A stretch of 64,000 bases of DNA. It comes from Marinilabiliaceae bacterium ANBcel2 (GTDB lineage Bacteria > Bacteroidota > Bacteroidia > Bacteroidales > Marinilabiliaceae). Shown in pieces: positions 38,482 to 50,712 of the stretch (the first letter of the stretch is position 1; every line of letters begins with the position of its first letter). The stretch spans positions 620,001 to 684,000 of the forward strand of contig JARULA010000001.1 of the NCBI GenBank assembly GCA_029688995.1. The letters run 5' to 3'. The position numbers and the translations under genes were made by a program. A model generated the notes under the pieces. The model ran no database searches and was not told where the DNA came from. It saw nothing but the letters and a program-made list of their open reading frames with translations.

Positions 38482-39333
38482 ATGAGAAGAGTAAAACATT
38501 ATATATTATACCTGTTTAAGATCTTAATCATGCTTGAATTAAGCGGATGCACAAAAACCATTACACCCGAACTTGATACCTCCCCCGAAAAACTTGTGGT
38601 AGAATCACTCTTATCAAATATAGATGAAATGCAAACGGTACGCTTAACAAAAACAGCACCATATCTCTCTCAAAAAAATGATGAGCCGGTAACCAATGCA
38701 AAAGTAGAGATAAGTTCAATAAACAAAACATATCGTCTAAAAGAAGCTACTAAACTACCCGGACTTTACTATATTGAGACAGAACAATTTAAACCAATAG
38801 CAGGTACTGAATACAAATTAAAAATTGAGTTGGATAAAGCTATAGGAGGGGATAGTACGAAAAACTACAGTTCAAAAACTAAAATGCCGCCCCCTGTAAA
38901 AATAGATTCAATAAAACTGACAAGATTAGATACGCATTGGTACATTTCAGCCTCCTTTAAAGACAGAGGTAATGGCACAAACCACTATCTATTTGATATG
39001 GTTAAAATTGATGAAAACAACAGATACAGAACTGCTGATTTAAAAATTATAGATAACCGTCTCTTTAGAGGTGAGTATGTTGAAGATATGATTATATATA
39101 CTATAGATAAAACTGAATCGACAAAAATAGAGAGCGGCGATATAATTGAACTAAGCATGAGTTCAATAAACTCAGAGATGTACAACTTTATAGAAGGTGT
39201 AAATCGTGAAACATCACAAATACCATCCCATTTTGCCGGTCCGCCTGCAAACATTAAAGGAAATATTAGTAATAATGCTTTAGGTATATTCAGTGCCGAA
39301 AACAGAGATACTACTTCACTGGTGGTTCAATAA
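38482..39333 (+). CDS. DUF4249-family outer-membrane lipoprotein
   Basis: The 283-residue protein has a lipoprotein signal peptide with lipobox LSGC (Cys near residue 23) and the DUF4249 pattern: KLVVESLLSNIDEMQTVRLTKTAPY, then NAKVEISS and GLYYIETEQFKPIAGTEYKL, all beta-rich. DUF4249 lipoproteins are encoded next to TonB-dependent receptors throughout Bacteroidota and are thought to be surface partners of the receptor, in the way SusD partners SusC. It starts 2 nt after the receptor stop, so the two form one unit. Substrate unknown. Its 3' end is 10 nt from the convergent folE. Confidence 0.85.
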   Translation: MRRVKHYILYLFKILIMLELSGCTKTITPELDTSPEKLVVESLLSNIDEMQTVRLTKTAPYLSQKNDEPVTNAKVEISSINKTYRLKEATKLPGLYYIETEQFKPIAGTEYKLKIELDKAIGGDSTKNYSSKTKMPPPVKIDSIKLTRLDTHWYISASFKDRGNGTNHYLFDMVKIDENNRYRTADLKIIDNRLFRGEYVEDMIIYTIDKTESTKIESGDIIELSMSSINSEMYNFIEGVNRETSQIPSHFAGPPANIKGNISNNALGIFSAENRDTTSLVVQ

Positions 39334-39343
39334 ATTAATAAAA

Positions 39344-39970
39344 TCAATGCAATCCGGAACTTATCAAATTAATAAACTCCTCTCTTGTAGCACTATTATT
39401 TAAAAAAGCTCCTGTAAAATCAGAAGTTGTGGTTACCGAATGCTGTTTTTGAACACCACGCATTTGCATACACATATGTTGCGCCTCAATAACTACAGCA
39501 ACTCCAAGAGGATTTAAATTATTTTGTAAACACTCCTTAATTTGAGTAGTCATTCTCTCCTGTACCTGTAACCTGCGTGCAAAAGCTTCAACAATTCTGG
39601 CAATTTTACTTAACCCTGTTATATAATTTCGAGGAATATATGCTACATGTGCCTTACCAAAAAAAGGTAACATATGATGTTCACACAAAGAGTAAACCTC
39701 TATATCTTTTACCAAAACCATTTGGCGATAATCCTCCCTGAACATAGCAGACCGAATAATATCATCGGTATTCATATCATAGCCCTGAGTTAAAAACTGC
39801 ATCGATTTTGCAACTCTTAAAGGGGTTTGTAGCAAACCCTCCCGCTCAACATTTTCGCCCAATAAAGAGAGAGACTTTTTATATAATTCGGCTAACTCCT
39901 TAGTGGTTTTATCATCATATAAATCTGTTCTGGAATAGCCGCCACTATCACCATTTAATGAAAACTCCAT
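39344..39970 (-). CDS. folE: GTP cyclohydrolase I (FolE)
   Basis: The 208-residue enzyme converts GTP to 7,8-dihydroneopterin triphosphate, the first step to folate (and to some queuosine precursors). The zinc and catalytic motifs are complete: [25 protein letters not shown] (about residues 90-115, Cys and His ligands), [20 protein letters not shown], and CMQMRGVQK with the second Cys ligand near residue 165. Length fits the type IA family. A TAATTTTG box lies about 23-30 nt upstream. It is convergent with the DUF4249 gene. Confidence 0.96.
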
Positions 39971-39992
39971 AACTCTTACATTTTAAACAGTG

Positions 39993-40000
39993 CAAAATTA
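39993..40000 (-). promoter_or_regulatory. Candidate -7 box for folE
   Basis: Minus strand TAATTTTG, an exact TAnnTTTG match 23-30 nt before the folE ATG; the predicted leader is about 18 nt. No clear -33 element. Confidence 0.4.
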
Positions 40001-40077
40001 TGCATTATATCAAAAAGATGTGCCTCTTTTTTAAATAAAAAAAGCAGGAACTAAAATATTGCTCCCGCCATAGATTT

Positions 40078-40107
40078 AAAAAGGTGTGTTAAAGTGAATT
40101 CAACACC
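40078..40107 (-). terminator. Probable terminator of the sod-nitroreductase unit
   Basis: Just after the nitroreductase stop, the minus strand reads GGTGTT, an 11-nt loop, then AACACACC and five T's. The stem has one or two bulged bases, so the call is moderate. Confidence 0.4.
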
Positions 40108-40108
40108 C

Positions 40109-40684
40109 CTATTTATTATATATAATTTCACTTAAAGGGCGTTTTGGAACATGATGCACCTCTTTTTCATCCCTATAATATTTTATTTCCCCGTCGTTTG
40201 CCTCTTCAAGAATCACATTCTCCTTTGGTTTTCCCAAAGCAACAACCTGAATAATCTTCAAATAGTTGGGAATATCCAAAGCTCTCTGTAGTTTTAATCT
40301 TTCAACTGATCCTATAATACAACCACCATAACCCTTCTCTGTTGCCCCCAGCAGAATTGATTGTGCTGCAATACCCTCATCGCAAAAATAGTTGTCAGAT
40401 ATACGGGAATCATTCATCATTATAAGATAAGCGGATGGTCTTTCTCCCTCCGAAGGCCCATCCCAGTCACGTAAATAACCGGCCCATGCTAAAAAGGGAA
40501 AAATCAACCTGTTAGTTTCCTTACTATTAGAGATAAAGTACTTAAGAGTTTGAGCATTACGTGCTGAGGGAGAAAGCCTTGCCAAATCAATTAACTCCTC
40601 AAGGATATCCCGTGAAATCTGCTCTTCCTGATAAAACCTTCGATAGCTTCTGTTCTTCTTAATTAACTCTTTTAAATTGCTCAT
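40109..40684 (-). CDS. Nitroreductase-family FMN-dependent oxidoreductase
   Basis: The 191-residue protein shows the nitroreductase fold signatures: the N-terminal FMN phosphate-binding RSYRRFYQEEQISRDILEELIDLARLSPSARNAQTLKYF (RRF and SPSARNAQ motifs), DEGIAAQSILLGATEKGYGGCIIG near residue 120, and IPNYLKIIQVVALGKPKE near residue 150. Such enzymes reduce nitro groups, quinones or flavins with NAD(P)H; the physiological substrate is not evident. It starts 31 nt after the Fe-type superoxide dismutase on the same strand, so the pair may form a small oxidative-stress unit. Size matches the short nitroreductase subfamily. Confidence 0.88.
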   Translation of the reverse strand: MSNLKELIKKNRSYRRFYQEEQISRDILEELIDLARLSPSARNAQTLKYFISNSKETNRLIFPFLAWAGYLRDWDGPSEGERPSAYLIMMNDSRISDNYFCDEGIAAQSILLGATEKGYGGCIIGSVERLKLQRALDIPNYLKIIQVVALGKPKENVILEEANDGEIKYYRDEKEVHHVPKRPLSEIIYNK

Positions 40685-40715
40685 ACAAAATATATTAACC
40701 TGATTAATACAATGA

Positions 40716-41291
40716 TTAGAGTCTTGACTCTACAACATCCCAATTAATAAGTTTCCAAAAACCATCAATATAATCGGGACGACGATTTTGATAATCAAGG
40801 TAGTAGGCATGCTCCCATACATCTATGGTAAGTAATGGTTTATGGCCATTTCGCAAAGGATTATCAGCATTGCTCGCCTTAAGAACCTCTAAAGAACCGT
40901 CATCTTTTTGAACAAGCCAGACCCAACCGCTACCAAACAGAGTTGTGGCAGCTTTGGTAAAAATCTCCTGAAACTTTTCAAAGGTTCCAAAATTATCCTC
41001 GATTAATTGAGCAATCTTTCCCTTTGGCTTACCTCCACCATTAGGAGAAAGTGAAGAGAAGTAAAATGTGTGGTTCCAAACCTGAGCTCCATTATTAAAT
41101 ATTCCATTATGACCCTTTTTTACAATTGTATCAAGATCACACTTTTCAAAATCACTCCCGGGTAATAGATCATTCAACTTATTTATATAAGTCTGATGAT
41201 GCTTACCATAATGATACTCTATGGTTTTTTTTGAAATGTAAGGTTCAAGAGCATCAGCTGCATAAGGTAGTTGAGGCAATTCAAATTTCAT
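40716..41291 (-). CDS. sodB: Superoxide dismutase, predicted Fe type
   Basis: The 191-residue cytoplasmic enzyme dismutates superoxide. Metal ligands are in place: HYGKHHQTY (His), NHTFYF (His), and [19 protein letters not shown] (Asp and His). The outer-sphere Gln that tunes the metal lies in the N-terminal helix pair (NNGAQVWNH), and Ala occupies the equivalent C-terminal site (SNADNPL). That is the FeSOD arrangement. It lies next to a second SOD that shows the opposite, Mn-type arrangement. It has a good TTTG-18 bp-TAAATTTG promoter and is followed by nitroreductase. Confidence 0.92.
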   Translation of the reverse strand: MKFELPQLPYAADALEPYISKKTIEYHYGKHHQTYINKLNDLLPGSDFEKCDLDTIVKKGHNGIFNNGAQVWNHTFYFSSLSPNGGGKPKGKIAQLIEDNFGTFEKFQEIFTKAATTLFGSGWVWLVQKDDGSLEVLKASNADNPLRNGHKPLLTIDVWEHAYYLDYQNRRPDYIDGFWKLINWDVVESRL

Positions 41292-41353
41292 GTTAAATAG
41301 ATTTTACTGTTCAACAATTATTATAAAAAAATAGAATTCAGTTGCAAGTAAAA

Positions 41354-41383
41354 CAAATTTAAACATTTTTTCGAGAAAACAAA
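41354..41383 (-). promoter_or_regulatory. Promoter of the Fe-type SOD gene
   Basis: Minus strand TTTG (41383-41380), an 18-bp spacer, then TAAATTTG (41361-41354): a full Bacteroidota-type promoter with a leader of about 60 nt. It sits directly after the terminator of the upstream Mn-type SOD gene, so the two SOD genes are controlled separately. Confidence 0.55.
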
Positions 41384-41412
41384 GAAAGCCCCGTAAAACT
41401 TAGTACGGGGCT
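41380..41412 (-). terminator. Rho-independent terminator of the Mn-type SOD gene
   Basis: Perfect 9-bp stem: AGCCCCGTA (41387-41395) pairs with TACGGGGCT (41404-41412) across an 8-nt loop. On the minus strand it is followed by TTTCTTTG. It lies about 50 nt after the gene stop. Confidence 0.8.
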
Positions 41413-41460
41413 CAAAACCAAAAATAATTACAAACTCAAATCATTACTCTTGAAACACTA

Positions 41461-42063
41461 CTACCCTCTTTTAAAATTATCCTCAACTTTTGTCCAGTTA
41501 ACAACATTCCAAAAAGCATCAATATATTCGGGGCGTCTGTTTTGGTATTTCAGGTAGTAAGCATGCTCCCAAACATCAAGTGCAAGCAGAGGCACTCCCG
41601 TCACAACACTAATATCCATAATAGGATTATCCTGATTTGGAGTAGAAGTTACCGTAAGAGAGCCGTCTGACTGTTTTATCAGCCATGCCCATCCCGAGCC
41701 AAATCTGGTAGTGGCAGCATTGGCAAACTCCACTTTAAAAGCATCAAATGAACCAAAAGCAGTCTCAATAGCTTTTAAAAATTCACCTGAAGGCATGCCT
41801 TTCGAAGGTCCTAATATCTCCCAAAAGAAATTGTGGTTATAAAAACCCCCACCATTATTTCTAATAGCAATGCTTTTATTAGAGACATCTTTAAGAAGAT
41901 CCTCAATAGATTTTCCCTCATCTGCGGTTCCTTTAACGGCACCGTTTAATTTATCAGTATAAGTTGAATGATGTTTTGTGTGATGAATTTCCATTGTTTG
42001 TGCATCAATATATGGTTCAAGGGCATCATACTTATAATTTAATTCAGGTAGTTGAAAAGCCAT
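41461..42063 (-). CDS. sodA: Superoxide dismutase, predicted Mn type
   Basis: A second 200-residue SOD just upstream of the Fe-type gene. Ligands: [10 protein letters not shown] (His), NHNFFWEIL (His), [19 protein letters not shown] (Asp, His). Here the N-terminal outer-sphere position is Gly (NNGGGFYNH) and Gln appears on the C-terminal side (TPNQDNPIM), the arrangement typical of MnSOD. It also has the NxD-type insert region longer than the other copy ([15 protein letters not shown]). The two proteins share architecture but differ clearly in sequence, so they are not a recent duplication. It has its own terminator. Metal use is predicted from motif only; cambialistic behaviour is possible. 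Confidence 0.9.
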
Positions 42064-42183
42064 AATATCTCATTTTTTAAGTTCAACATATCATTTGTCA
42101 CATTCAAAATAGAAGGTAAAATTTAAACCTGCTTATTAAGAATGGCTCTATATAAGAAACAACTTTAAGAGAAAATGGTTCAT

Positions 42184-43950
42184 CTATTCTTGTCTATTTT
42201 TTAACGAGCTAACTAAACCGGCATATTTTCCATCATACGAGATTAACTCGCTATGAGATCCTCGCTCAATAATCTCTCCATTTTCAAGAACAATGATAAG
42301 GTCAGACCTCTTTATTGTGCTTAACCTGTGAGCAACGGCAATAACGGTACGAGAAGATAAGATGTTCTCTATTGCTTTTTGAATATAATTTTCGGTAACA
42401 GAGTCAACTGAACTTGTTGCTTCATCCAAAATTATCAATTCACGATTATCGCAAATAGCTCTGGCAAAGGATATAAGTTGAGCCTGTCCGCGTGAGAGAT
42501 TATCACCATTATCTTGCACTTTATAGCTATACCCTCCAGGTAGCTCTTTAATAAATCTATCGGCATAAACAAACCGCGCAGCATCTTCAATATCTTGCTC
42601 ACTAATATTTTCCCTACCCAATCCGATATTAAAAGCAACCGACTCATTAAACATAAAAATATCCTGTTGCATTAAGGCACCAAGGGAACGTACATGATTA
42701 ATAGGAATATGAGAAAGTTCAACTCCATTGATGGTTATAGACCCCCTATAACCAGAATAGGCACAGGTTAAAAGACGTAAAATTGTAGATTTACCTGATC
42801 CTGTAGAACCAACAAGCGCAATGCGATCGCCTCGCTTCATAGTAAAGGAGATATTCTTTAATACATCCTCTCCCTTATTGTAGGCAAACGAAACATTTTT
42901 AAACTCAATCTCTTTAATATCATCTATCGTCGCAGTAGATCTATATTCTCTTCTCTTCTCATCATCCTCGATCTTCTCTTCAAAAAGTGAGCTGATATGT
43001 TCTAAAGCAGACATAGCTCGTTGAATAGTCGATATTTGCTGAGCAAACTGACGTACAGGAATAAAAAGACGACTAAGTGTGATAACAAATACAATAAGAA
43101 CTCCGATGGAGTAATCGTACTCCCAAATTTGGACAGCACCATACCATAAAATCAATGCTGTAGCAACAGATGTTATACCCTCTACAACAGAATAGAGCGC
43201 TGCATCATAAACATTAGACCGGTTTTGAGCATTAGAGTACTCTCTGTTAAGAGTATCATACTTATTCCATGCTTCCCTATCAGCACCATAAAGCCGTATG
43301 GTTTTAACCCCGTTTAAAGACTCCTGCAAATAAGCGGCAGATTTGGCCAGGCTGGTACGGGATTGATTAAAGGCAGCTCTGATTTTTTTACGCAAAAACT
43401 TTATAACAATTACTATAAATGGTACTACAAGTAATAAAACCAATGTAAGACGCCAGTTTAAATAGAAGAGGTAAGAGACTAATGCTGCTGTCTTAAACGA
43501 ATCTGCCAACAAACCAAGTATCCCTGCAGCAAAAGATTCAGCAATAGCCTCCATATCGCTGGTTAATCTCGAAAGAGTAACTCCTATCGGATTTTTATCG
43601 AAATAGCGCATAGGAAATCTCAACGACTTACCAAATAACTCTTTTCGCATATCAACTATTGCCAATCCACCAGCCTTTGAGAAAGAGTAACTGTAAATAC
43701 CATCAAAGAGAAAATTAACCACCAAAACAGCAGCAAGCATAAAAGAGTATAGTTTTAACCCTGTAACATCTCCGGGAATTATAAAGTCATCAATAATACG
43801 CTCCACAAGCCACAAAAAGAGAATCCCTGCAAAAGTTGTAACAGGAATTGAGCAGAAACTAATAATAACCCATTTTTTATATGGAAAAAAATAGCGACTA
43901 AACCTCTTTAACAGTTGAAGATCTTTTGATTTTATAACTCTCTTTATCAT
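42184..43950 (-). CDS. ABC exporter half-transporter with consensus catalytic site residues
   Basis: The 588-residue protein fuses a six-helix type IV (ABCB-like) membrane domain (about 1-320) with an ATPase domain: Walker A GSTGSGKST near 381, signature LSRGQ near 484 (not the consensus LSGGQ), Walker B LIILDEATSSVD near 503 with catalytic Glu, and H-loop AHRLST near 537. It begins 10 nt after a sister gene, with which it would form a heterodimer. The ATG at 43950 avoids an overlap with that gene; an upstream start at 43992 would overlap by 32 nt. The pair follows glutamate-cysteine ligase, so a thiol or thiol-conjugate substrate is possible, as for CydDC, but multidrug export (BmrCD-like) is equally compatible. 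Confidence 0.85.
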   Translation of the reverse strand: MIKRVIKSKDLQLLKRFSRYFFPYKKWVIISFCSIPVTTFAGILFLWLVERIIDDFIIPGDVTGLKLYSFMLAAVLVVNFLFDGIYSYSFSKAGGLAIVDMRKELFGKSLRFPMRYFDKNPIGVTLSRLTSDMEAIAESFAAGILGLLADSFKTAALVSYLFYLNWRLTLVLLLVVPFIVIVIKFLRKKIRAAFNQSRTSLAKSAAYLQESLNGVKTIRLYGADREAWNKYDTLNREYSNAQNRSNVYDAALYSVVEGITSVATALILWYGAVQIWEYDYSIGVLIVFVITLSRLFIPVRQFAQQISTIQRAMSALEHISSLFEEKIEDDEKRREYRSTATIDDIKEIEFKNVSFAYNKGEDVLKNISFTMKRGDRIALVGSTGSGKSTILRLLTCAYSGYRGSITINGVELSHIPINHVRSLGALMQQDIFMFNESVAFNIGLGRENISEQDIEDAARFVYADRFIKELPGGYSYKVQDNGDNLSRGQAQLISFARAICDNRELIILDEATSSVDSVTENYIQKAIENILSSRTVIAVAHRLSTIKRSDLIIVLENGEIIERGSHSELISYDGKYAGLVSSLKNRQE

Positions 43951-43960
43951 CTCTTCTTTT

Positions 43961-45703
43961 TTATGACTCCTCCTGAATATTAAGTGTATCACGATAAAAT
44001 CCGGCTCTCCTCTTTAATTGATCATGAGTGCCCTCATCAACCTTACGACCATTATCCAAAACAATAATCCGGTCGGTTCTCTCAAGAACACTTATACGTG
44101 TACTAACAAAAATCATACTTTTGACATTGCTCGTACTAAAGAGCTGCTCAATTATAAATCTTTCAGTATCAGTGTCTACAGCAGAGAAAACATCATCAAG
44201 AATCAAAAGGTCGCACTCACTGTAAAGGGCTCTGGCCAGACTGATTCTCTGTTTTTGACCTCCCGATAACATTATCCCTTTCTCTCCCACCATGGTTTTC
44301 TCTGTTTTAGGGAATTTCTCTATCTCGTGTGATAAAGCACTTTGATAAAGCACATTCTTAAATTTTGAACTATCAAAACTATCATTAGAACCAAAATAGA
44401 TATTATTCTCAATTGTATCTGAAAAGAGAAAAACATCCTGAGTAACTGTTCTTACCGAAGCAGCAATATCTTTAATCCTAACTGAATCAGAATCGACATC
44501 TCCAAAAAAAACCTTTCCTTTACCGGCCCTTAAGTACCCATTTATACAATTTATCAAAGTAGTTTTTCCACTACCGAGTGGTCCGGTTATACCAATAATT
44601 TCTCCCGGTTTTATATCAAAGCTTATATCAGAGATGACAGGCAGCTCCCCTTGCTGATAACTGTAACTCAAATTGTTTATCTTAATTCCATTATCAAACA
44701 GCTCCTTTTTCTGGGAGTATAAAAGCGATTTACGACCATCATCAGCACCTTTGCGATTCATTATTGTTTGCAAACTGCCCACTCCTACAAACCCTTGCTG
44801 CATAACTGTTAAAACCCAGCCAAGCCCCATAACAGGATGGGCAAGAAGAGCAGCATATGCAATATATTCGGTAAGCTGACCTATAGAAAAAGTCCCATTT
44901 ATAACAAACATACCTCCGGCAAAAAGAATAACAACCTTTAAAATTTGCTCAATACTGGCTAAAAGTGGTATAATAAAAGATCTAATCCAGGCAATATTAA
45001 GAGTATAACCAAATAACGCGACATTATCTTTATGAACACGTCTCTCGGCATCACTATAGATGTTATAACTTTTTATTACAGAAGCTCCCGACAAAAAAGA
45101 GACAACTTTTCCTGATAAGGATTGTAACGCTGCCATTCTATTACGGGTATTTTTAACCATAATTACCATTCCTACCCTTACTATAACAAAAATAATTATA
45201 AGAGGAATCACACTGTATAGTGTAAGCTCGGGAGACATTTTCCACATTTTATATGGAGTAACCGACAATGATAAAATAATATTGCCGGTTTGTAACAGTC
45301 CAAAACCCGTTATCATTCTAACTCCGTTAATGTCATTATTGAGTCGTGAGATAACCGATCCGGTAGTATTACGATCAAAATAGTCTTTACCAAACGAGGT
45401 GAGTTTTGTAAACATTTCACCTTTAAGCTGCCTCTCTATAAGTCGGCCCGGAATAAAAAAGAGAATACGAGAGAGTGTTCGCACAAAAATTAATGCAACA
45501 GCCAGCAGAAGTATTGCAATAATATAGCTTAAAAACTGATCCTGTGAAGCTTCCCGACCATAAGCAATAAGATCCACACTCTTTTGAATATATCCCGGTA
45601 TTGTTACTGATGCCCAAATCGTTAACCCCAAAAAAATTAATCCGCCTGCATACCACCATCTGAATTGAGATGTATAGTGCAATAAAAATTTAATTTTAGA
45701 CAT
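43961..45703 (-). CDS. ABC exporter half-transporter with degenerate catalytic site
   Basis: The 580-residue partner has the same layout: membrane domain about 1-310, Walker A GPLGSGKTT near 374, canonical signature LSGGQKQR near 478, but Walker B reads LLILDDVFSAVD (Asp in place of catalytic Glu) and the switch His of the H-loop is replaced (VSTRIS). With the partner's LSRGQ signature this gives one consensus and one degenerate ATP site, the pattern of asymmetric exporters such as TM287/288 and BmrCD. It begins 44 nt after the gshA-like gene and is probably cotranscribed with it. Confidence 0.87.
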   Translation of the reverse strand: MSKIKFLLHYTSQFRWWYAGGLIFLGLTIWASVTIPGYIQKSVDLIAYGREASQDQFLSYIIAILLLAVALIFVRTLSRILFFIPGRLIERQLKGEMFTKLTSFGKDYFDRNTTGSVISRLNNDINGVRMITGFGLLQTGNIILSLSVTPYKMWKMSPELTLYSVIPLIIIFVIVRVGMVIMVKNTRNRMAALQSLSGKVVSFLSGASVIKSYNIYSDAERRVHKDNVALFGYTLNIAWIRSFIIPLLASIEQILKVVILFAGGMFVINGTFSIGQLTEYIAYAALLAHPVMGLGWVLTVMQQGFVGVGSLQTIMNRKGADDGRKSLLYSQKKELFDNGIKINNLSYSYQQGELPVISDISFDIKPGEIIGITGPLGSGKTTLINCINGYLRAGKGKVFFGDVDSDSVRIKDIAASVRTVTQDVFLFSDTIENNIYFGSNDSFDSSKFKNVLYQSALSHEIEKFPKTEKTMVGEKGIMLSGGQKQRISLARALYSECDLLILDDVFSAVDTDTERFIIEQLFSTSNVKSMIFVSTRISVLERTDRIIVLDNGRKVDEGTHDQLKRRAGFYRDTLNIQEES

Positions 45704-45747
45704 GCCTAAGTAAAACTTCGCATTTAAAAATATAAAGTTGTTTTAGT

Positions 45748-47115
45748 TTATGGTCGCTCTAAAGGGTGATAATATGGCCACTCTTTAACCATCTTCTTAA
45801 GATCACCCTGCCACTTGTTATAATATTCATCCAGATGCCTCTCGGCCGGAGTAATACCACTATTTAAAACTTGAAAAAGCGGATCAAGATAGCAGCTCTC
45901 ATTTTCAATTCCTAAAATTTTAGATCGCTTAGCCAGCCCCTCAAAAGAAAGATTTAACAGGTCTGTGGCCACCTCTTTAACAAAATAACTATTTGCCCGC
46001 GCAGAAAGGCCATCTTTTGCAACCAACTCACGTACAGTAGAGATGTCATCAACACTCCACTGCATTGCCATATCATAAGCTCTGTTTAAGATTTCCTCAT
46101 TGTATAAAATACCAACCCATAAGGCTGATAAAGAGGCTATATTTATAGCACAGCCGGCATCAGCTCCCCTTATCTCAATAAACTTTTTTAATCTTATATC
46201 GGGAAATACTGTAGAGAGATGAATCTCCCAATCGGTCATATCTGCACGCCAGGGTAGCTCTCCATCTATAAATTGACGAAAAGATTTATTATTTGCCGGT
46301 AAAAACTGATTATCTCGATAGACAAAATAGAGTGGAATATCAAGCAGGTAATCACACCACTTCTCAAATCCAAAATCATCATCAAAAATAAAGGAAAGAA
46401 ACCCACATCGTTCGGAATCGGTATCATCCCATACACGCGATCGATAACTTAAATATCCATTGGGTTTACCTTCAACAAAAGGAGAGTTGGCAAACAGGGC
46501 TGTAACAACTGGCTGAAAAGCCTGAGCAACACGCATCTTTTTTATCATATCCTCTTGATCTAAATAATCAAGATTAACCTGTATAGAAGCTGTTCTGCTC
46601 ATCATGTCCAGTCCAAGAGAGCCTTGTTTGGGCATTCTTTGTCGCATATATTGATAACGCTTTTTTGGCATCCAGTCAATATCCTCTCTGCGACTTAATG
46701 GGTCAAACCCCATACACAAACTAACAGCATTAAAATTACTGCATATTGTTCGCAACTCATCAAAATGTTTTAATGTCTCTGCCCATGTTTGATGAACATT
46801 TTTAAAATTTCTCCCCGACAACTCAAATTGCCCGCCCGGTTCAAGGGTAATTGAAGCTCCATTTTTTGTTAAGGCTATAAGATTGTTATTTTCAGTTACA
46901 GCACTCCAGCCCTGCTCTTTCATAAAAGATAAAATGCTCTTTATACCATTACTACCTTCATAAGTTAACCGGGTAAGTTTCTCTTTATCAAACAAAAACT
47001 TTTCATGCTCAGTACCTATCCCCCAATTATCTGCCGGCTTACTCCCCGATGCAAAATAGTTTATCAGTTGCTCTTTACTCTCAATAGGCTCGTTCAATAT
47101 ATCTAAAACATCCAT
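45748..47115 (-). CDS. gshA: Glutamate-cysteine ligase, plant/alphaproteobacterial (GCS2) type
   Basis: The 455-residue enzyme joins glutamate and cysteine to gamma-glutamylcysteine. The plant-type GCL pattern is clear: WGIGTEHEKFLFD near residue 30, ITLEPGGQFELSG near 90, MGFDPLSRREDIDWMPKKRYQYMRQRMPKQG near 135, MMSRTASIQVNLDY near 170, NSPFVEGKPNGYLSYRSRVW near 210, and KFIEIRGADAG near 315. This family is distinct from E. coli GshA. It begins 21 nt after an ATP-grasp gene resembling the C-terminal half of GshF and is followed by an ABC exporter pair, so a complete thiol operon is likely. An EgtA-like role (ergothioneine) is less likely, since no other egt genes are present. Confidence 0.9.
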   Translation of the reverse strand: MDVLDILNEPIESKEQLINYFASGSKPADNWGIGTEHEKFLFDKEKLTRLTYEGSNGIKSILSFMKEQGWSAVTENNNLIALTKNGASITLEPGGQFELSGRNFKNVHQTWAETLKHFDELRTICSNFNAVSLCMGFDPLSRREDIDWMPKKRYQYMRQRMPKQGSLGLDMMSRTASIQVNLDYLDQEDMIKKMRVAQAFQPVVTALFANSPFVEGKPNGYLSYRSRVWDDTDSERCGFLSFIFDDDFGFEKWCDYLLDIPLYFVYRDNQFLPANNKSFRQFIDGELPWRADMTDWEIHLSTVFPDIRLKKFIEIRGADAGCAINIASLSALWVGILYNEEILNRAYDMAMQWSVDDISTVRELVAKDGLSARANSYFVKEVATDLLNLSFEGLAKRSKILGIENESCYLDPLFQVLNSGITPAERHLDEYYNKWQGDLKKMVKEWPYYHPLERP

Positions 47116-47136
47116 TCAATAATAATTTAAACCTTA

Positions 47137-48144
47137 TCACACCTTTTTTGAAGAAAGTATAGTATCAAGAACATATTTACCAATATTACGGTTTTTTCCA
47201 AAATAAGGATAGTTATGCATTGATAACATTGCAGGTGCGTTTAACTCTATAACTATATAATTATCGTCACATGGAATACTCTTTTCATCCTTAATAATAA
47301 TATCAACTCCGGCAATTCGCAATCCTGCACTTTTCGCGGCTCTTACAGCAACATCACAATAAAATGAGTTAATATCATCGGTAACATCAACACTGTCACC
47401 ACCTGTACTCAAATTAGAGTTTTTGCGTAAATAAAGAGTCTCTCCTTTATAAGGAACCGACAAAGGAGTATAACCCTGTTGGGCTAAATGTCTTTTAACC
47501 TCATCATCAATAACTATTTTCAACAGGGGGTGGCGATAATCTGCACCTCTGCCTCTATTTTTTATATCAACAAGTTGCTCAACTGTTTTTATACCATCAC
47601 CACACACATTTGCCGGCAAACGATATGCAACAGCTCTTACTTTAGAATCAATAACCATAAATCGGTACTCTCTTCCTTCACAATATTGCTCAACAATAAC
47701 CCCTTTCGAAAAGTTTAATGCATAATCAACAGCCTTTATCAGATCGCTCTCCTCTCCTATGTCGGTCTGTACACCAATACCATGATCTGTATCTAACGGT
47801 TTTACAACAACCGGATACTCTATGCCGTTAATCTGTTTTTTTAAATAACCCCGTTTTAACAAAACTCCTTTAGCACAACTTATTCCCTCTCTTTTTAAAA
47901 ACAGCTTGGTCATCCATTTGTCATCCGATATCTTATACGAAATCAAACTGTTGGCATCAGACACTGTTCCTTCATGAATAACAAACTCTCTACCTTTATA
48001 TTTTACCGAAATAAGATTGTTATCAGCATCAATAATTTCTAGAGGCAAATTTCGCTTTAATATCTCAGCAATTATTATCTGAGTTGTAGCTTCAAAATTT
48101 TCATAACCCTTTAAAGGAGTAAAGTGATAATTTGATTCAATCAT
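47137..48144 (-). CDS. ATP-grasp ligase resembling the glutathione-synthetase half of GshF
   Basis: The 335-residue protein has an ATP-grasp fold: KWMTKLFLKREGISCAKGVLL near residue 75, IEYPVVVKPLDTDHGIGVQT near 110 (ATP-binding Lys and Gly loop), VIVEQYCEGREYRFMVIDSKV near 150, TGGDSVDVTDDI near 255 and IIELNAPAMLSMHNYPYFG near 305 with the metal-binding E-x-N. This order and the GDSVDVTDDI motif match the C-terminal domain of bifunctional GshF and of cyanophycin synthetases, not E. coli GshB. Next to gshA, the likely job is adding glycine (or another amino acid) to gamma-glutamylcysteine. A TAACTTTG box lies at 48149-48156, so close to the ATG that the mRNA could be nearly leaderless. Confidence 0.8.
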   Translation of the reverse strand: MIESNYHFTPLKGYENFEATTQIIIAEILKRNLPLEIIDADNNLISVKYKGREFVIHEGTVSDANSLISYKISDDKWMTKLFLKREGISCAKGVLLKRGYLKKQINGIEYPVVVKPLDTDHGIGVQTDIGEESDLIKAVDYALNFSKGVIVEQYCEGREYRFMVIDSKVRAVAYRLPANVCGDGIKTVEQLVDIKNRGRGADYRHPLLKIVIDDEVKRHLAQQGYTPLSVPYKGETLYLRKNSNLSTGGDSVDVTDDINSFYCDVAVRAAKSAGLRIAGVDIIIKDEKSIPCDDNYIVIELNAPAMLSMHNYPYFGKNRNIGKYVLDTILSSKKV

Positions 48145-48184
48145 AGTGCAAAGTTAACAAGATTATTCGCTTTAAATAGAAAAC

Positions 48185-48216
48185 AAAAAAAACCGGATCT
48201 TGTTAAAAAGACCCGG
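48185..48216 (-). terminator. Rho-independent terminator of the hsp20 gene
   Basis: Minus strand: CCGGGTCTT (48216-48208) pairs with AAGATCCGG (48201-48193) with one mismatch, then eight or more T's. It separates hsp20 from the thiol operon. Confidence 0.75.
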
Positions 48217-48256
48217 CAAATATTTTTTTTGTGACTCCTATGGAGTCAAATTCTCA

Positions 48257-48697
48257 TTATTTTATATCAATCATTTTGGGAGGTTTAGGTTTAACCTCTT
48301 CACGTTTTTTAAGAGTAATATTCAATATCCCATCCTTATATCGGGCATCAATTTTAGACTCATCCACCTCATTACGTGGAATGGCAAAAGATCTGCGAAA
48401 ACCTGAGTAGCAGAACTCTCTGCGGGTAAAACCTTCATCTTTCTCCTCTTTATTCTCCTCCTTTTCACAACTTATGGTTAATACATTGTTATTAACCTCT
48501 ACCTTAAAATCATTTTTATTCAATCCAGGAGCTGCTACTTCAATAAAGTACTCATCATCGTTCTCACGAACATTTACCGACGGCATTGTAGTTTTGCCTG
48601 CAACAGAAGGAGTATTAAAAATATCACCTCCAAAAAAGTCATCAAAAATATTAGCAATGTCAGGCATTTGGTTGTTAAATCTTCTTACGAGTGTCAT
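48257..48697 (-). CDS. Hsp20/alpha-crystallin-family small heat-shock protein
   Basis: The 146-residue protein has the alpha-crystallin domain (about residues 40-135): PSVNVRENDDEYFIEVAAPGLNKNDFKVEVNNNVLTIS and the ending ARYKDGILNITLKKREE with the A-x-x-x-GIL motif. The N-terminal arm (FNNQMPDIANIFDDFFGGD) is the oligomerisation segment. It is an ATP-independent holdase that binds unfolding proteins. A strong Shine-Dalgarno sequence (AAGGAGGG) lies 8 nt before the ATG, uncommon in this genome. A TATATTTG box about 140 nt upstream is the best promoter candidate, and a strong terminator follows. Confidence 0.93.
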   Translation of the reverse strand: MTLVRRFNNQMPDIANIFDDFFGGDIFNTPSVAGKTTMPSVNVRENDDEYFIEVAAPGLNKNDFKVEVNNNVLTISCEKEENKEEKDEGFTRREFCYSGFRRSFAIPRNEVDESKIDARYKDGILNITLKKREEVKPKPPKMIDIK

Positions 48698-48837
48698 AGT
48701 TAAACCCTCCTTAATTTTTTAGTTCAACATAAATTTAATCACTTTCGCTTAAGATATCACAAACCCTATACCAGACTGCCTTTCAGGACATTATGGCACA
48801 AAAAAGCATTACGACTGTCACTGTGGCTCAAGCATTG

Positions 48838-48845
48838 CAAATATA
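48838..48845 (-). promoter_or_regulatory. Candidate -7 box for hsp20
   Basis: Minus strand TATATTTG followed by CAA, an exact consensus match; it would give a leader of about 135 nt. No clear -33 TTG. Confidence 0.35.
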
Positions 48846-48891
48846 ATGACAAATTGTCGCTCATAAAATTGTTAGCTCTATAACTAACAAT

Positions 48892-48928
48892 AAAAAAACT
48901 GCCTTAATTATAAAAATCAAGACAGTTT
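48892..48928 (-). terminator. Rho-independent terminator of the cold-shock-domain gene
   Basis: Minus strand: AAACTGTCTT (48928-48919) pairs with AAGGCAGTTT (48905-48896) with one G-U pair across a 13-nt loop, followed by a run of T's. Located 35 nt after the gene stop. Confidence 0.7.
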
Positions 48929-48962
48929 AAAATTGTTATAGCTAAAAAATATATAATGAATA

Positions 48963-49409
48963 TCAAGTAAGCTTTACTTTCACAGCATTTATACCTTTCA
49001 ATCCCATTTCAGTTTCAAAAGTTACCTTACTCCCTTTTTCAATATCATCAAGCAACCCGTTAACATGCACAAAGACACTCTCCTGTGTCTCGCTATCCTT
49101 AATAAAGCCGTACCCTTTAGCATCATTAAAAAATGTGACCACTCCCTTTCTAACAGGATCATACTCAACCTCCTCCTGTTTAGATACACTCACCTCAATA
49201 TCCTCAGCATTAACTTCAGTTTTTCGATCGGGATCGGGTGGTGTTGAAGTAATTTTGCCATTCTCATCTACGTAGGCTATCATATCATCCAAGCTCTTCT
49301 TTTCAGATTTAGACCTGCGCACTTCCTTTTTATGCTCTTTATCCTGCTTCTTTTTCCTTTTCTTTTTTTCCAGCTCTTTCTTATTAAAACTGATTTGTGA
49401 TTTTGCCAT
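48963..49409 (-). CDS. Cold-shock-domain protein with basic N-terminal extension
   Basis: The 148-residue protein joins a very Lys-rich N-terminal tail (about residues 1-40, KKELEKKKRKKKQDKEHKKE) and an acidic linker to a C-terminal cold-shock domain (about 86-148): GVVTFFNDAKGYGFIKD with RNP1 (KGYGFI) and SVFVHVNGL with RNP2. Cold-shock domains bind single-stranded RNA or DNA and melt RNA structure. Plain CspA proteins are ~66-70 residues, so the tail roughly doubles the size; tailed forms are common in Bacteroidota. It is followed by a terminator and preceded by a well-formed promoter within the gap after aroA. Confidence 0.9.
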   Translation of the reverse strand: MAKSQISFNKKELEKKKRKKKQDKEHKKEVRRSKSEKKSLDDMIAYVDENGKITSTPPDPDRKTEVNAEDIEVSVSKQEEVEYDPVRKGVVTFFNDAKGYGFIKDSETQESVFVHVNGLLDDIEKGSKVTFETEMGLKGINAVKVKLT

Positions 49410-49442
49410 ATAGGTTTATAACTATTTAAAATTAATCGGGCT

Positions 49443-49472
49443 CAAAGATAAGATAAATGTTCCAACTAACAA
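49443..49472 (-). promoter_or_regulatory. Promoter of the cold-shock-domain gene
   Basis: Minus strand TTG (49472-49470), a 19-bp spacer, then TATCTTTG (49450-49443): a full consensus match with a leader of about 30 nt, in the short gap after aroA. Confidence 0.5.
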
Positions 49473-49476
49473 TTAT

Positions 49477-50712
49477 TTATTTTATGGTATCAATTGTAAA
49501 TCCGATTTTTAACAGATCATCCCAATATTGTCTATATGACTTATTAACAACAGAAGGATCTTCTAATTTAAGTTTTTTTGTAATTAAAGAAGCCATGCCA
49601 AAAGACATTGCCATACGATGATCTTTATAGGTTGAAACAGTAATATCCTCTATTGGTTCACACCTCTCACCCTCCCAATAAAGATTGTCAACACCATTGC
49701 TTTTTACAATAAAACCAAATTTTTGAAGCTCAGTAATAAGAGCCTCAATTCTATTAGTCTCCTTAATTGTTAAAGTGTGTAACCCCTTAAAATTAAAAGG
49801 AATGCCCAAAAAAGCAGCAGTTACCGCAACAGTCTGTGCAAGATCGGGCTCATTTATAAAATTATAACTAAATTTTTTTACCCTGTTACCACTATTCACA
49901 ATTTTAAGTCCTCTTTTAGAAAATTCTGTAGTAACACCAAAAGAGTTATAAATCTCTCTCACCACACTATCTCCCTGCCAACTATGCCTTTTAAGTCCTT
50001 TTAACACCACAGAATCACCGGGAGTTGCAAAACTTACAGCCTGATACCAGTATGAAGCTGCGCTCCAGTCCCCCTCAACCTTACTGCTCACAGGTATATA
50101 CCCTCCTGCGGGAACAAAAATAGATCCCCCTTTCCAGCTACATTTTATACCAAACTGCTCCATAAGTTTAAGTGTTAAATCAATATAAGGACGAGAAGTT
50201 ATCTCTCCCTTTAGATGAAGAGTAAGGCCATCTTCCATATAGGGTGCTATCATTAAAAGAGCTGAAATGTACTGACTGCTTACATCGCCTTTCATTTCAA
50301 TCTCTCCTCCTTTTAAAGCACTTCCAAATATTTTTAAAGGAGGATAACCCTCTTTTTCAACATACTCAATTTTTGCACCCAAACTATTTAATGCATCAAT
50401 GAGCACATTTACAGGCCTCTGTTTCATCCTTTCACTCCCGGTAATATACCATTCACCAACTATTTTTGAAAGGTATGCCGTCAAAAATCGCATAGTAGTA
50501 CCGCCTGCACCAACATCAAAACTATTACTGTTTGAAGTTAACACATCAATTAAAGCTTTGGTATCATCACTATCCGAAAGATTCTTTACCGGATAGGGAC
50601 TATAACTTAAAGCATTTAAAATTAAGAGCCTGTTACTAATACTTTTAGAAGATGGCAGGTCTATCTCAGCAAATTTAAATCTATCGGGTGCTTGTATCTC
50701 AAATTTATCCAT
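49477..50712 (-). CDS. aroA: 3-phosphoshikimate 1-carboxyvinyltransferase (EPSP synthase)
   Basis: The 411-residue enzyme transfers enolpyruvyl from PEP to shikimate-3-phosphate, step six of chorismate synthesis. Visible motifs: LPSSKSISNRLLILNAL near residue 20 (substrate Lys and Ser), FDVGAGGTTMRFLTAYL near 80, GDVSSQYISALLM near 145, FINEPDLAQTVAVTAAFLG near 285, and DHRMAMSFGMAS near 370. It is slightly shorter than E. coli AroA (427). The ATG at 50712 was chosen because it sits immediately after the aroB stop; an upstream start at 50742 would overlap aroB. It is cotranscribed with aroB. Confidence 0.95.
   Translation of the reverse strand: MDKFEIQAPDRFKFAEIDLPSSKSISNRLLILNALSYSPYPVKNLSDSDDTKALIDVLTSNSNSFDVGAGGTTMRFLTAYLSKIVGEWYITGSERMKQRPVNVLIDALNSLGAKIEYVEKEGYPPLKIFGSALKGGEIEMKGDVSSQYISALLMIAPYMEDGLTLHLKGEITSRPYIDLTLKLMEQFGIKCSWKGGSIFVPAGGYIPVSSKVEGDWSAASYWYQAVSFATPGDSVVLKGLKRHSWQGDSVVREIYNSFGVTTEFSKRGLKIVNSGNRVKKFSYNFINEPDLAQTVAVTAAFLGIPFNFKGLHTLTIKETNRIEALITELQKFGFIVKSNGVDNLYWEGERCEPIEDITVSTYKDHRMAMSFGMASLITKKLKLEDPSVVNKSYRQYWDDLLKIGFTIDTIK

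Follow-up and report, generated by a model that had tools for sequence, protein, structure and literature searches.

Low-molecular-weight thiols set the cellular redox state. In Marinilabiliaceae bacterium ANBcel2, a stretch of 64,000 nucleotides (contig JARULA010000001.1, positions 620,001 to 684,000; hereafter the window) was found to contain, between positions 42184 and 48144, four genes that appear to couple the synthesis of such a thiol to its export. All four open reading frames lie on the minus strand and encode, in order, a stand-alone ATP-grasp ligase, a plant-type glutamate-cysteine ligase (GshA), and the two half-transporters (ABC1 and ABC2) of an ATP-binding cassette (ABC) exporter. 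The system is predicted to serve glutathione-type synthesis and is conserved and coherent; in it, plant-type GshA is combined with an unfused relative, probably the sister, of the ATP-grasp half of the fusion enzyme GshF, and with an exporter of its own. On balance we consider it somewhat probable that the operon is a dedicated synthesis-and-export cassette for a gamma-Glu-Cys-X thiol. A preliminary description of this DNA had reported four genes on one strand with gaps of 10-44 nucleotides (nt), and this was borne out: the gaps are 21 nt between ligase and GshA, 44 nt between GshA and ABC1, and 10 nt between ABC1 and ABC2. The last value assumes that ABC2 starts at the ATG at 43950; the open reading frame caller prefers a GTG at 43992, which overlaps ABC1.

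The Stand-Alone ATP-Grasp Ligase

The best family match of the ligase is the C-terminal half of GshF (NF002688) with 289.6 bits, which is under the cut-off of 425 set for the full GshF fusion. Cyanophycin synthetase (CphA) comes second with 278 bits, under its cut-off of 850, and both cut-offs were made for proteins longer than this one. The Pfam families found over their gathering scores are RimK, Dala_Dala_lig_C, ATP-grasp_6, and ATP-grasp_3, that is, ATP-grasp families only. GSH-S_ATP (PF02955) was absent from the Pfam matches at E<=0.001, and the ligase was therefore ruled out as a GshB. An AlphaFold prediction using 24 sequences gave a best model with a mean predicted local distance difference test score (pLDDT) of 83.5 (61-73 for the other four) and a predicted template modelling score (pTM) of 0.84. 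The model is least certain at residues 306-313 (pLDDT <50), a loop that holds Ser308. When it was compared with solved structures in the PDB, GshF (3ln6) ranked first (E 3.6e-30, TM-score 0.79 by query length), and CphA1 was among the next.

The relationship to these families was examined in trees that also contained NAGGN synthetase. The larger tree (66 rows) contained 8 GshF rows and a subset of 16 CphA rows out of 31; the cut sequence L090 was excluded. The smaller (31 rows) was built from 12 stand-alone ligases, 7 GshF, 9 CphA, and 3 NAGGN rows, with the long L124 and the very long L131 omitted. A further tree of only three groups says nothing on sisterhood, whereas the trees with NAGGN synthetase can. 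In both, the stand-alone ligases formed a single clade (support 98/99 with 66 rows and 100/99 with 31 rows). The GshF rows were monophyletic without them (100/99 for 8 rows and 100/100 for 7 rows), and an origin of the ligase as a broken-off GshF half was ruled out on this ground. The two clades grouped together to the exclusion of CphA and NAGGN synthetase (support 99/94 and 99/96, respectively). Constrained trees of the 31 rows gave p-AU values (approximately unbiased test) of 0.0127 when the stand-alone ligases were placed with CphA and 0.0129 when they were placed with NAGGN synthetase, and both joint clades were rejected. The branches to the stand-alone and GshF clades are long (1.3-1.8 changes per column; 2.1-4.5 for NAGGN synthetase), and the tree program warns of long branches meeting. 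Because of this the sisterhood with GshF is likely rather than certain. The stand-alone clade is thus likely the unfused sister of the GshF ATP-grasp half and not nested within GshF. The suggestion of a split origin of GshF function, made in the preliminary description, was not supported: the clade is sister to GshF, and its partner is a plant-type enzyme.

The omitted L131 (2-3532, from Agrobacterium tumefaciens pAt) is a large hypothetical protein with a C-terminal ATP-grasp domain of the same superfamily, which sits on a very long branch. Its gene adjoins an alpha/beta hydrolase gene.

Residue roles described for TeCphA1 in an excerpt of PMC9427784 were transferred through an alignment and counted in 39 stand-alone, 8 GshF, 31 CphA, and 3 NAGGN rows. 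The equivalents of K220, K261, R309, R323, N394, D431, and E450 are identical in all 81 rows, including 39/39 stand-alone ligases. Other positions divide the families. At the P-loop position of H267, His is found in 39/39 stand-alone (His121 in the window ligase) and 31/31 CphA rows, as against Phe or Tyr in 8/8 GshF and Gln in 3/3 NAGGN rows. At the E215 position, a donor side-chain contact in CphA, 38/39 stand-alone rows have Trp, 8/8 GshF rows Leu, and 31/31 CphA rows Asp or Glu; the window ligase has Lys71 here instead of the Trp of its clade. The R458 position, which binds the acceptor alpha-carboxylate, is Ser (Ser308) in 39/39 stand-alone rows, His or Tyr in 8/8 GshF, Arg in 31/31 CphA, and Ala in 3/3 NAGGN rows. 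At the G456 position the stand-alone clade has Met (39/39), the GshF rows Ala or Ser, and CphA and NAGGN synthetase Gly. The omega-loop motif of the clade, NSNxSTGGDS, is of the GshF kind.

GshF is itself variable at these positions. The same excerpt of PMC9427784 and PDB chains give Met or Tyr at the R458 position, so that His, Tyr, and Met all occur there, and Met at the G456 position is shared by the stand-alone clade and the GshF structure 3ln7. An excerpt of a study on GshF engineering (PMC12840475) yielded no glycine-site residues. The predicted reaction machinery of the ligase clade is thus intact, and its predicted donor and acceptor contacts fit neither GshF nor CphA. Since the pocket residues differ from both, we only assume glycine to be the acceptor, and individual residues are no sufficient guide to the substrate of the ligase.

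GshA and the ABC Exporter Pair

GshA matched the plant-type glutamate-cysteine ligase family TIGR01436 with 515.9 bits, over the cut-off of 463.15, and its nearest solved structures are chloroplast-type enzymes (6gmo, E 3.2e-121; 2gwc, E 3.9e-121). The pairing of plant-type GshA with a GshF-like ligase other than GshB, as first described, is supported. The best plasmid-borne relative of GshA is from Paroceanicella (44.3% identity over 96% of the query). In a comparison with three alphaproteobacterial copies, consistent differences are confined to positions 49, 57, 90, 198, and 224. In a literature search, no paper was found that names the substrate-binding residues of the plant enzyme.

The nucleotide-binding motifs of the exporter were counted in 34 rows (the window and 33 others). 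In ABC1 the Walker B Glu is replaced by Asp in 34/34 rows (LLILDD in the window protein) and the H-loop His by Asn in 32 rows, Thr in 1, and Ser in 1; ABC2 has the canonical Glu and His in 34/34. Conversely, the signature LSGGQ is intact in ABC1 (34/34) and altered in ABC2 to LS[KRQ]GQ or ISKGQ (LSRGQ in the window). The predicted exporter is therefore a conserved asymmetric heterodimer in which one ATP site is degenerate and the other canonical, and the asymmetry noticed at the outset is real. In the PDB the pair matches ABCB exporters as well as bacterial heterodimers (5mkk/6raf, TM_0288, and the YheI/YheH chains). The matches of ABC1 include ABCC2 and ABCC4, which score below the ABCB multidrug exporters. 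Against CydD (TIGR02857, cut-off 435) ABC1 and ABC2 reached 188.3 and 250.2 bits, and against CydC (TIGR02868, cut-off 329.05) they reached 160.7 and 210.3 bits. With both subunits under both cut-offs, CydDC was ruled out as the identity of the pair.

Distribution and Co-inheritance

The distribution was assessed in 61 genomes of the window's order, namely its own and those of 60 relatives. The stand-alone ligase (at least 56% identity) was found in 14 of them. The same 14 carry plant-type GshA (E <1e-130) adjacent to it, and neither ligase was found in the other 47. ABC1 (E<=1e-60) is present in 13 of the 14 operon genomes and in none of the 47 others; it is lacking in Balneicella (G051). Stretches from 13 relatives were inspected, and ABC2 was seen at its expected place in the 12 that have ABC1. 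Three genomes have GshF instead of the operon (G011, G035, and G047, where the frame is cut by a contig end), calls that rest on frame length, the C-terminal position of the domain, and the tree. Two of these are members of the window's own family with GshF-length genes (L018 in G011 and L016 in G035), and both systems occur together in 0/61 genomes.

In a sample of the phylum (395 genomes including the window's), plant-type GshA (E<=1e-40) was found in none of the other 394. ATP-grasp matches (E<=1e-20) besides the window's lie in open frames of 380-1031 amino acids (aa), all but one of at least 457 aa. The shortest, a 380-aa frame (G200:C19:18778-19440, E 1.1e-23), is the sole one short enough for another stand-alone relative.

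A scan of a contig database with two peptide patterns of the clade, by which distant forms may be missed, matched 51 stretches and led to 37 confirmed loci, several of which belong to the same genomes as the sampled relatives. Nearly all are from Marinilabiliales (NCBI), bacteria of the sea and of sediments: Marinilabilia, Anaerophaga, Thermophagus, Alkalitalea, Natronoflexus, Geofilum, and Saccharicrinis of the Marinilabiliaceae, and Sunxiuqinia, Draconibacterium, Mangrovibacterium, Mariniphaga, and Tangfeifania of the Prolixibacteraceae. A further carrier is Balneicella (Balneicellaceae; Bacteroidales by NCBI), and the remainder are Bacteroidales or members of these families. The four genes are untruncated and in the same order in 30/37 loci. 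Six loci end at a contig edge (L064, L072, L075, L083, L090, and L091) and are consistent as far as present, and the Balneicella locus (L086) has the ligase pair without ABC genes. The flanks vary by lineage, and the neighbours in the window are shared by none of the loci except for one gene in two of them (see below). Because the order is the same in 30/37 loci, the grouping of the genes lies far beyond chance.

When distances between loci (30 loci and the window) were compared protein by protein, the four proteins gave correlations of 0.82-0.94, and 0/999 permutations were as high for any of the six pairs. Such a correlation would also be expected from vertical descent alone. The copies of G002 and Saccharicrinis group among those of Prolixibacteraceae, and G021 and G031, from the genus of G002, have no operon. 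Together, these placements and absences suggest that the whole unit may have been transferred between lineages. In some loci a gene is split into two frames: GshA and ABC1 in L060 (8028-11186; the complete genome of Draconibacterium orientale), ABC2 in L084 (11357-13152), and GshA in L091 (194-1595). L060 and L084 are among the 30 loci counted above, and the splits reflect either sequencing error or decay.

Proposed Function and Thiol Context

In the predicted pathway, GshA would join Glu and Cys. The stand-alone enzyme would then activate the Cys carboxylate with ATP, as an acyl phosphate, and add a third amino acid. Glycine, which would yield glutathione, is taken as the default, and the acceptor is left free, given a pocket unlike that of GshF. 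The heterodimeric exporter would move the product out of the cytoplasm, either as the free thiol or in oxidised or conjugated form. The data establish gene content and layout, shared inheritance, enzyme families, conserved catalytic residues, and the asymmetry of the exporter; we infer which reactions take place, what the third residue is, in which form the product is transported, and in which direction.

The genomes were searched for other components of thiol metabolism. Bacillithiol is known from members of the Bacteroidetes; BshC was found in 0/61 genomes, as compared with 3 of 14 control genomes. The GshB domain (PF02955) exceeded its cut-off in 10/61 genomes, three of them among the 14 with the operon (G002, G022, and G032), and not in that of the window, which is 98.13% complete on 35 contigs. 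The match in G002 was rejected as GshB and assigned to RimK (379.4 vs 331 bits); that in G022 reads by eye as RimK-like with an extra N-terminal part. The glutathione S-transferase (GST) search covered the domain GST_N_3 only, which was found in 3/61 genomes and 0/14 with the operon. Type-1 glutathione reductase (TIGR01421) exceeded its cut-off in 0/61 genomes, a profile that exceeded it in just one of the 14 control genomes and thus covers one type of glutathione reductase. The best reductase-like match in the window genome is a dihydrolipoyl dehydrogenase (558.9 vs 408.8 bits), which is under both reductase cut-offs. Gamma-glutamyltransferase (GGT) and glutaredoxin likewise gave no match in the window genome. 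The simplest view of a cell with predicted thiol synthesis, a pump encoded next to it, and none of the common consumers is that it exports the thiol.

A protein in G017 (L161, 335-913) has 192 aa, with a C-terminal YruB-type glutaredoxin domain and an extra N-terminal part. Frames with a glutaredoxin match, mostly of similar size, are also found among relatives that carry the operon and among those that lack it.

Several points weigh against the export cassette. In Balneicella the ligase pair is present and the ABC genes are not, and therefore the pair can be useful lacking this exporter. The missing BshC, GST_N_3, and type-1 reductase do not separate carriers, as they are absent or rare across all 61 genomes. 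GGT is found in 18/61 genomes (6/14 with the operon and 12/47 others) and glutaredoxin over the cut-off in 17/61 (7/14 and 10/47). Thioredoxin-like or other enzymes could use the thiol inside the cell. The co-occurrence counts ignore the relatedness of the genomes, and ABC families are promiscuous, so the substrate of the exporter is not readable from sequence.

The operon might instead make ordinary glutathione for the cytoplasm, with the ABC pair acting as an MRP- or Atm1-like detoxification pump for S-conjugates or metal-thiolate complexes. The glutaredoxin-like matches in half of the operon genomes would agree with such a role, as would the superoxide dismutase (SOD)-like gene downstream in the window, with a homologue near the operons of L048 and L085, and the presence among the listed PDB matches of ABC1 of ABCC2 and ABCC4, which are linked to glutathione conjugates. 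However, ABC1 scores higher against ABCB multidrug exporters than against ABCC, and GST_N_3, glutaredoxin, and glutathione reductase are all missing from the window genome, which makes this explanation rather unlikely. Still less can be said for the ABC pair being a general multidrug exporter that neighbours thiol genes by chance. Family-level similarity and the lack of the pair in Balneicella would allow it, but the restriction of ABC1 to operon genomes (13/14 vs 0/47) and a gene order kept despite changing flanks leave it very improbable.

The identity of the product raises another alternative, namely that the pair makes a peptide other than glutathione. Examples would be a gamma-Glu-Cys-X whose X differs from glycine, or a short (gamma-Glu-Cys) oligomer that would bind metal or act as a signal. 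The invariant Ser308, where GshF has His or Tyr and CphA Arg, points in this direction, and so do the Trp in place of the GshF Leu at the donor position and the CphA-type P-loop His. Conversely, GshF is the nearest clade (99/96) and shares the omega-loop, the G456 position is Met in 3ln7 too, and the R458 position is not constant within GshF; we regard this alternative as unlikely. The possibility of a different gamma-glutamyl thiol, raised in the preliminary description, is strengthened by the unusual pocket residues and is still a prediction from sequence. Its furthest form, a secreted and previously undescribed gamma-Glu-Cys-X thiol (X not glycine), the product of a GshF/CphA ligase of a third type, released by its own exporter in sampled genomes without a bacillithiol ligase, is put forward only tentatively and would be a doubtful bet. 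The synthesis-and-export cassette, with its third residue left free, is the reading we retain.

Operon Borders and Neighboring Genes

The features of the operon are collected in Table 1. A terminator-like hairpin sits between an upstream Hsp20-like gene and the ligase gene (48217-48192) and is likely the 5' border of the operon. Seven such sites were found in the region, compared with 4.0 (sd 1.9) in shuffled sequences. The sequence TAACTTTG ahead of the ligase ATG fits what we take to be the Bacteroidota -7 box and is a candidate only. With its short gaps, the upstream hairpin, and TAACTTTG ahead of the ATG, the set resembles a single transcription unit. An Rfam scan of 39000-50000 gave 0 matches, and a sigma-70 promoter scan gave 27 sites vs 23.7 expected.

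Directly downstream of the operon lie two tandem genes on the minus strand (40716-41291 and 41461-42063), presumably Fe/Mn SODs, the nearer of which lies 120 nt from the operon. In L048 and L085 a homologue of the second SOD-like gene is found about 0.9 kb downstream on the opposite strand.

Table 1. Features of the predicted thiol operon in the window.
Feature	Description	Position	Strand	Basis
ATP-grasp ligase (P0001)	stand-alone, 335 aa	47137..48144	-	profiles, AlphaFold model, clade, residues
GshA (P0002)	plant-type glutamate-cysteine ligase, GCS2 family, 455 aa	45748..47115	-	TIGR01436, PDB matches
ABC1 (P0003)	exporter half-transporter 1, 580 aa, degenerate ATP site	43961..45703	-	motifs, PDB matches
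ABC2 (P0004)	exporter half-transporter 2, 588 aa from ATG 43950	42184..43950	-	motifs, PDB matches
TAACTTTG	possible -7 promoter box of the Bacteroidota type, ends 4 nt ahead of first ATG	48149..48156	-	read from sequence
Hairpin	terminator-like, 10 pairs (5 G-C) then T-run	48192..48217	-	hairpin scan

Relation to Known Systems

The closest known system is GshF (also GshAB; 3ln6 and 3ln7), the nearest ATP-grasp clade and nearest solved fold, with the same NSNxSTGGDS loop. In GshF, however, glutamate-cysteine ligase and ATP-grasp activities are part of one chain, whereas here they are encoded by separate genes and the partner is plant-type. Moreover, GshF has Phe or Tyr rather than His in the P-loop and His, Tyr, or Met in place of Ser308, and the window ligase falls under the GshF cut-off. 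Stand-alone proteins like the C-terminal half of GshF are described from Methanobacterium, beside a GshA like its N-terminal half, in an excerpt of PMC7278568. By that description alone, they are likewise unfused GshF-type ATP-grasp enzymes adjoining GshA, and therefore an unfused GshF-like ligase is not unprecedented. The Methanobacterium GshA is related to the N-terminal half of GshF, unlike the plant-type enzyme here, and the excerpt mentions no ABC exporter. The window GshA belongs with the plant and alphaproteobacterial enzymes of TIGR01436, here found in Bacteroidota and otherwise in none of the 394 genomes of the phylum sample. The G domain of CphA1 shares its fold, P-loop His, and catalytic residues with the ligase, which differs in standing alone at 335 aa without a Mur-ligase domain and in having Ser for Arg458 and Trp for Asp/Glu215.

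Like TM287-288 and the matched chains that we take to be TmrAB and BmrCD, the exporter pairs a degenerate ATP site with a canonical one; here it is encoded with thiol ligases. CydDC is also a heterodimeric ABC exporter and was once assigned the export of glutathione and cysteine, and the window pair is under the cut-offs of both of its families. The role of CydDC in glutathione export is disputed: it is stated to export glutathione and cysteine in PMC4785604, and in an excerpt of PMC10374445 it is reported not to be stimulated by either and is called a heme transporter. Of the earlier proposal that the product is exported as by CydDC, export itself is plausible, with four genes conserved as a unit, and the CydDC parallel is weak.

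A 2018 survey with gsh queries from E. coli and Synechocystis found gshA-gshB only in Cyanobacteria, Proteobacteria, eukaryotes, and one actinobacterium, and gives none for Bacteroidetes in the part available (PMC6282198). In a paper that mentions Marinilabilia 37 times (PMC6307301) the words "glutathione", "thiol", and "cysteine" do not occur. Judged by titles and abstract openings, no paper describing the operon was found among the matches listed; an unfused ligase with plant-type GshA and an exporter was likewise not found in print among them.

Across the 61 genomes of the order, BshC is found in none, the unfused ligase pair in 14, and the exporter subunit in 13 of these. The operon carriers would allow clean genetic tests of what a bacterium gains by exporting its thiol, and the ligase clade may serve as a test case for a change of acceptor in ATP-grasp ligases.

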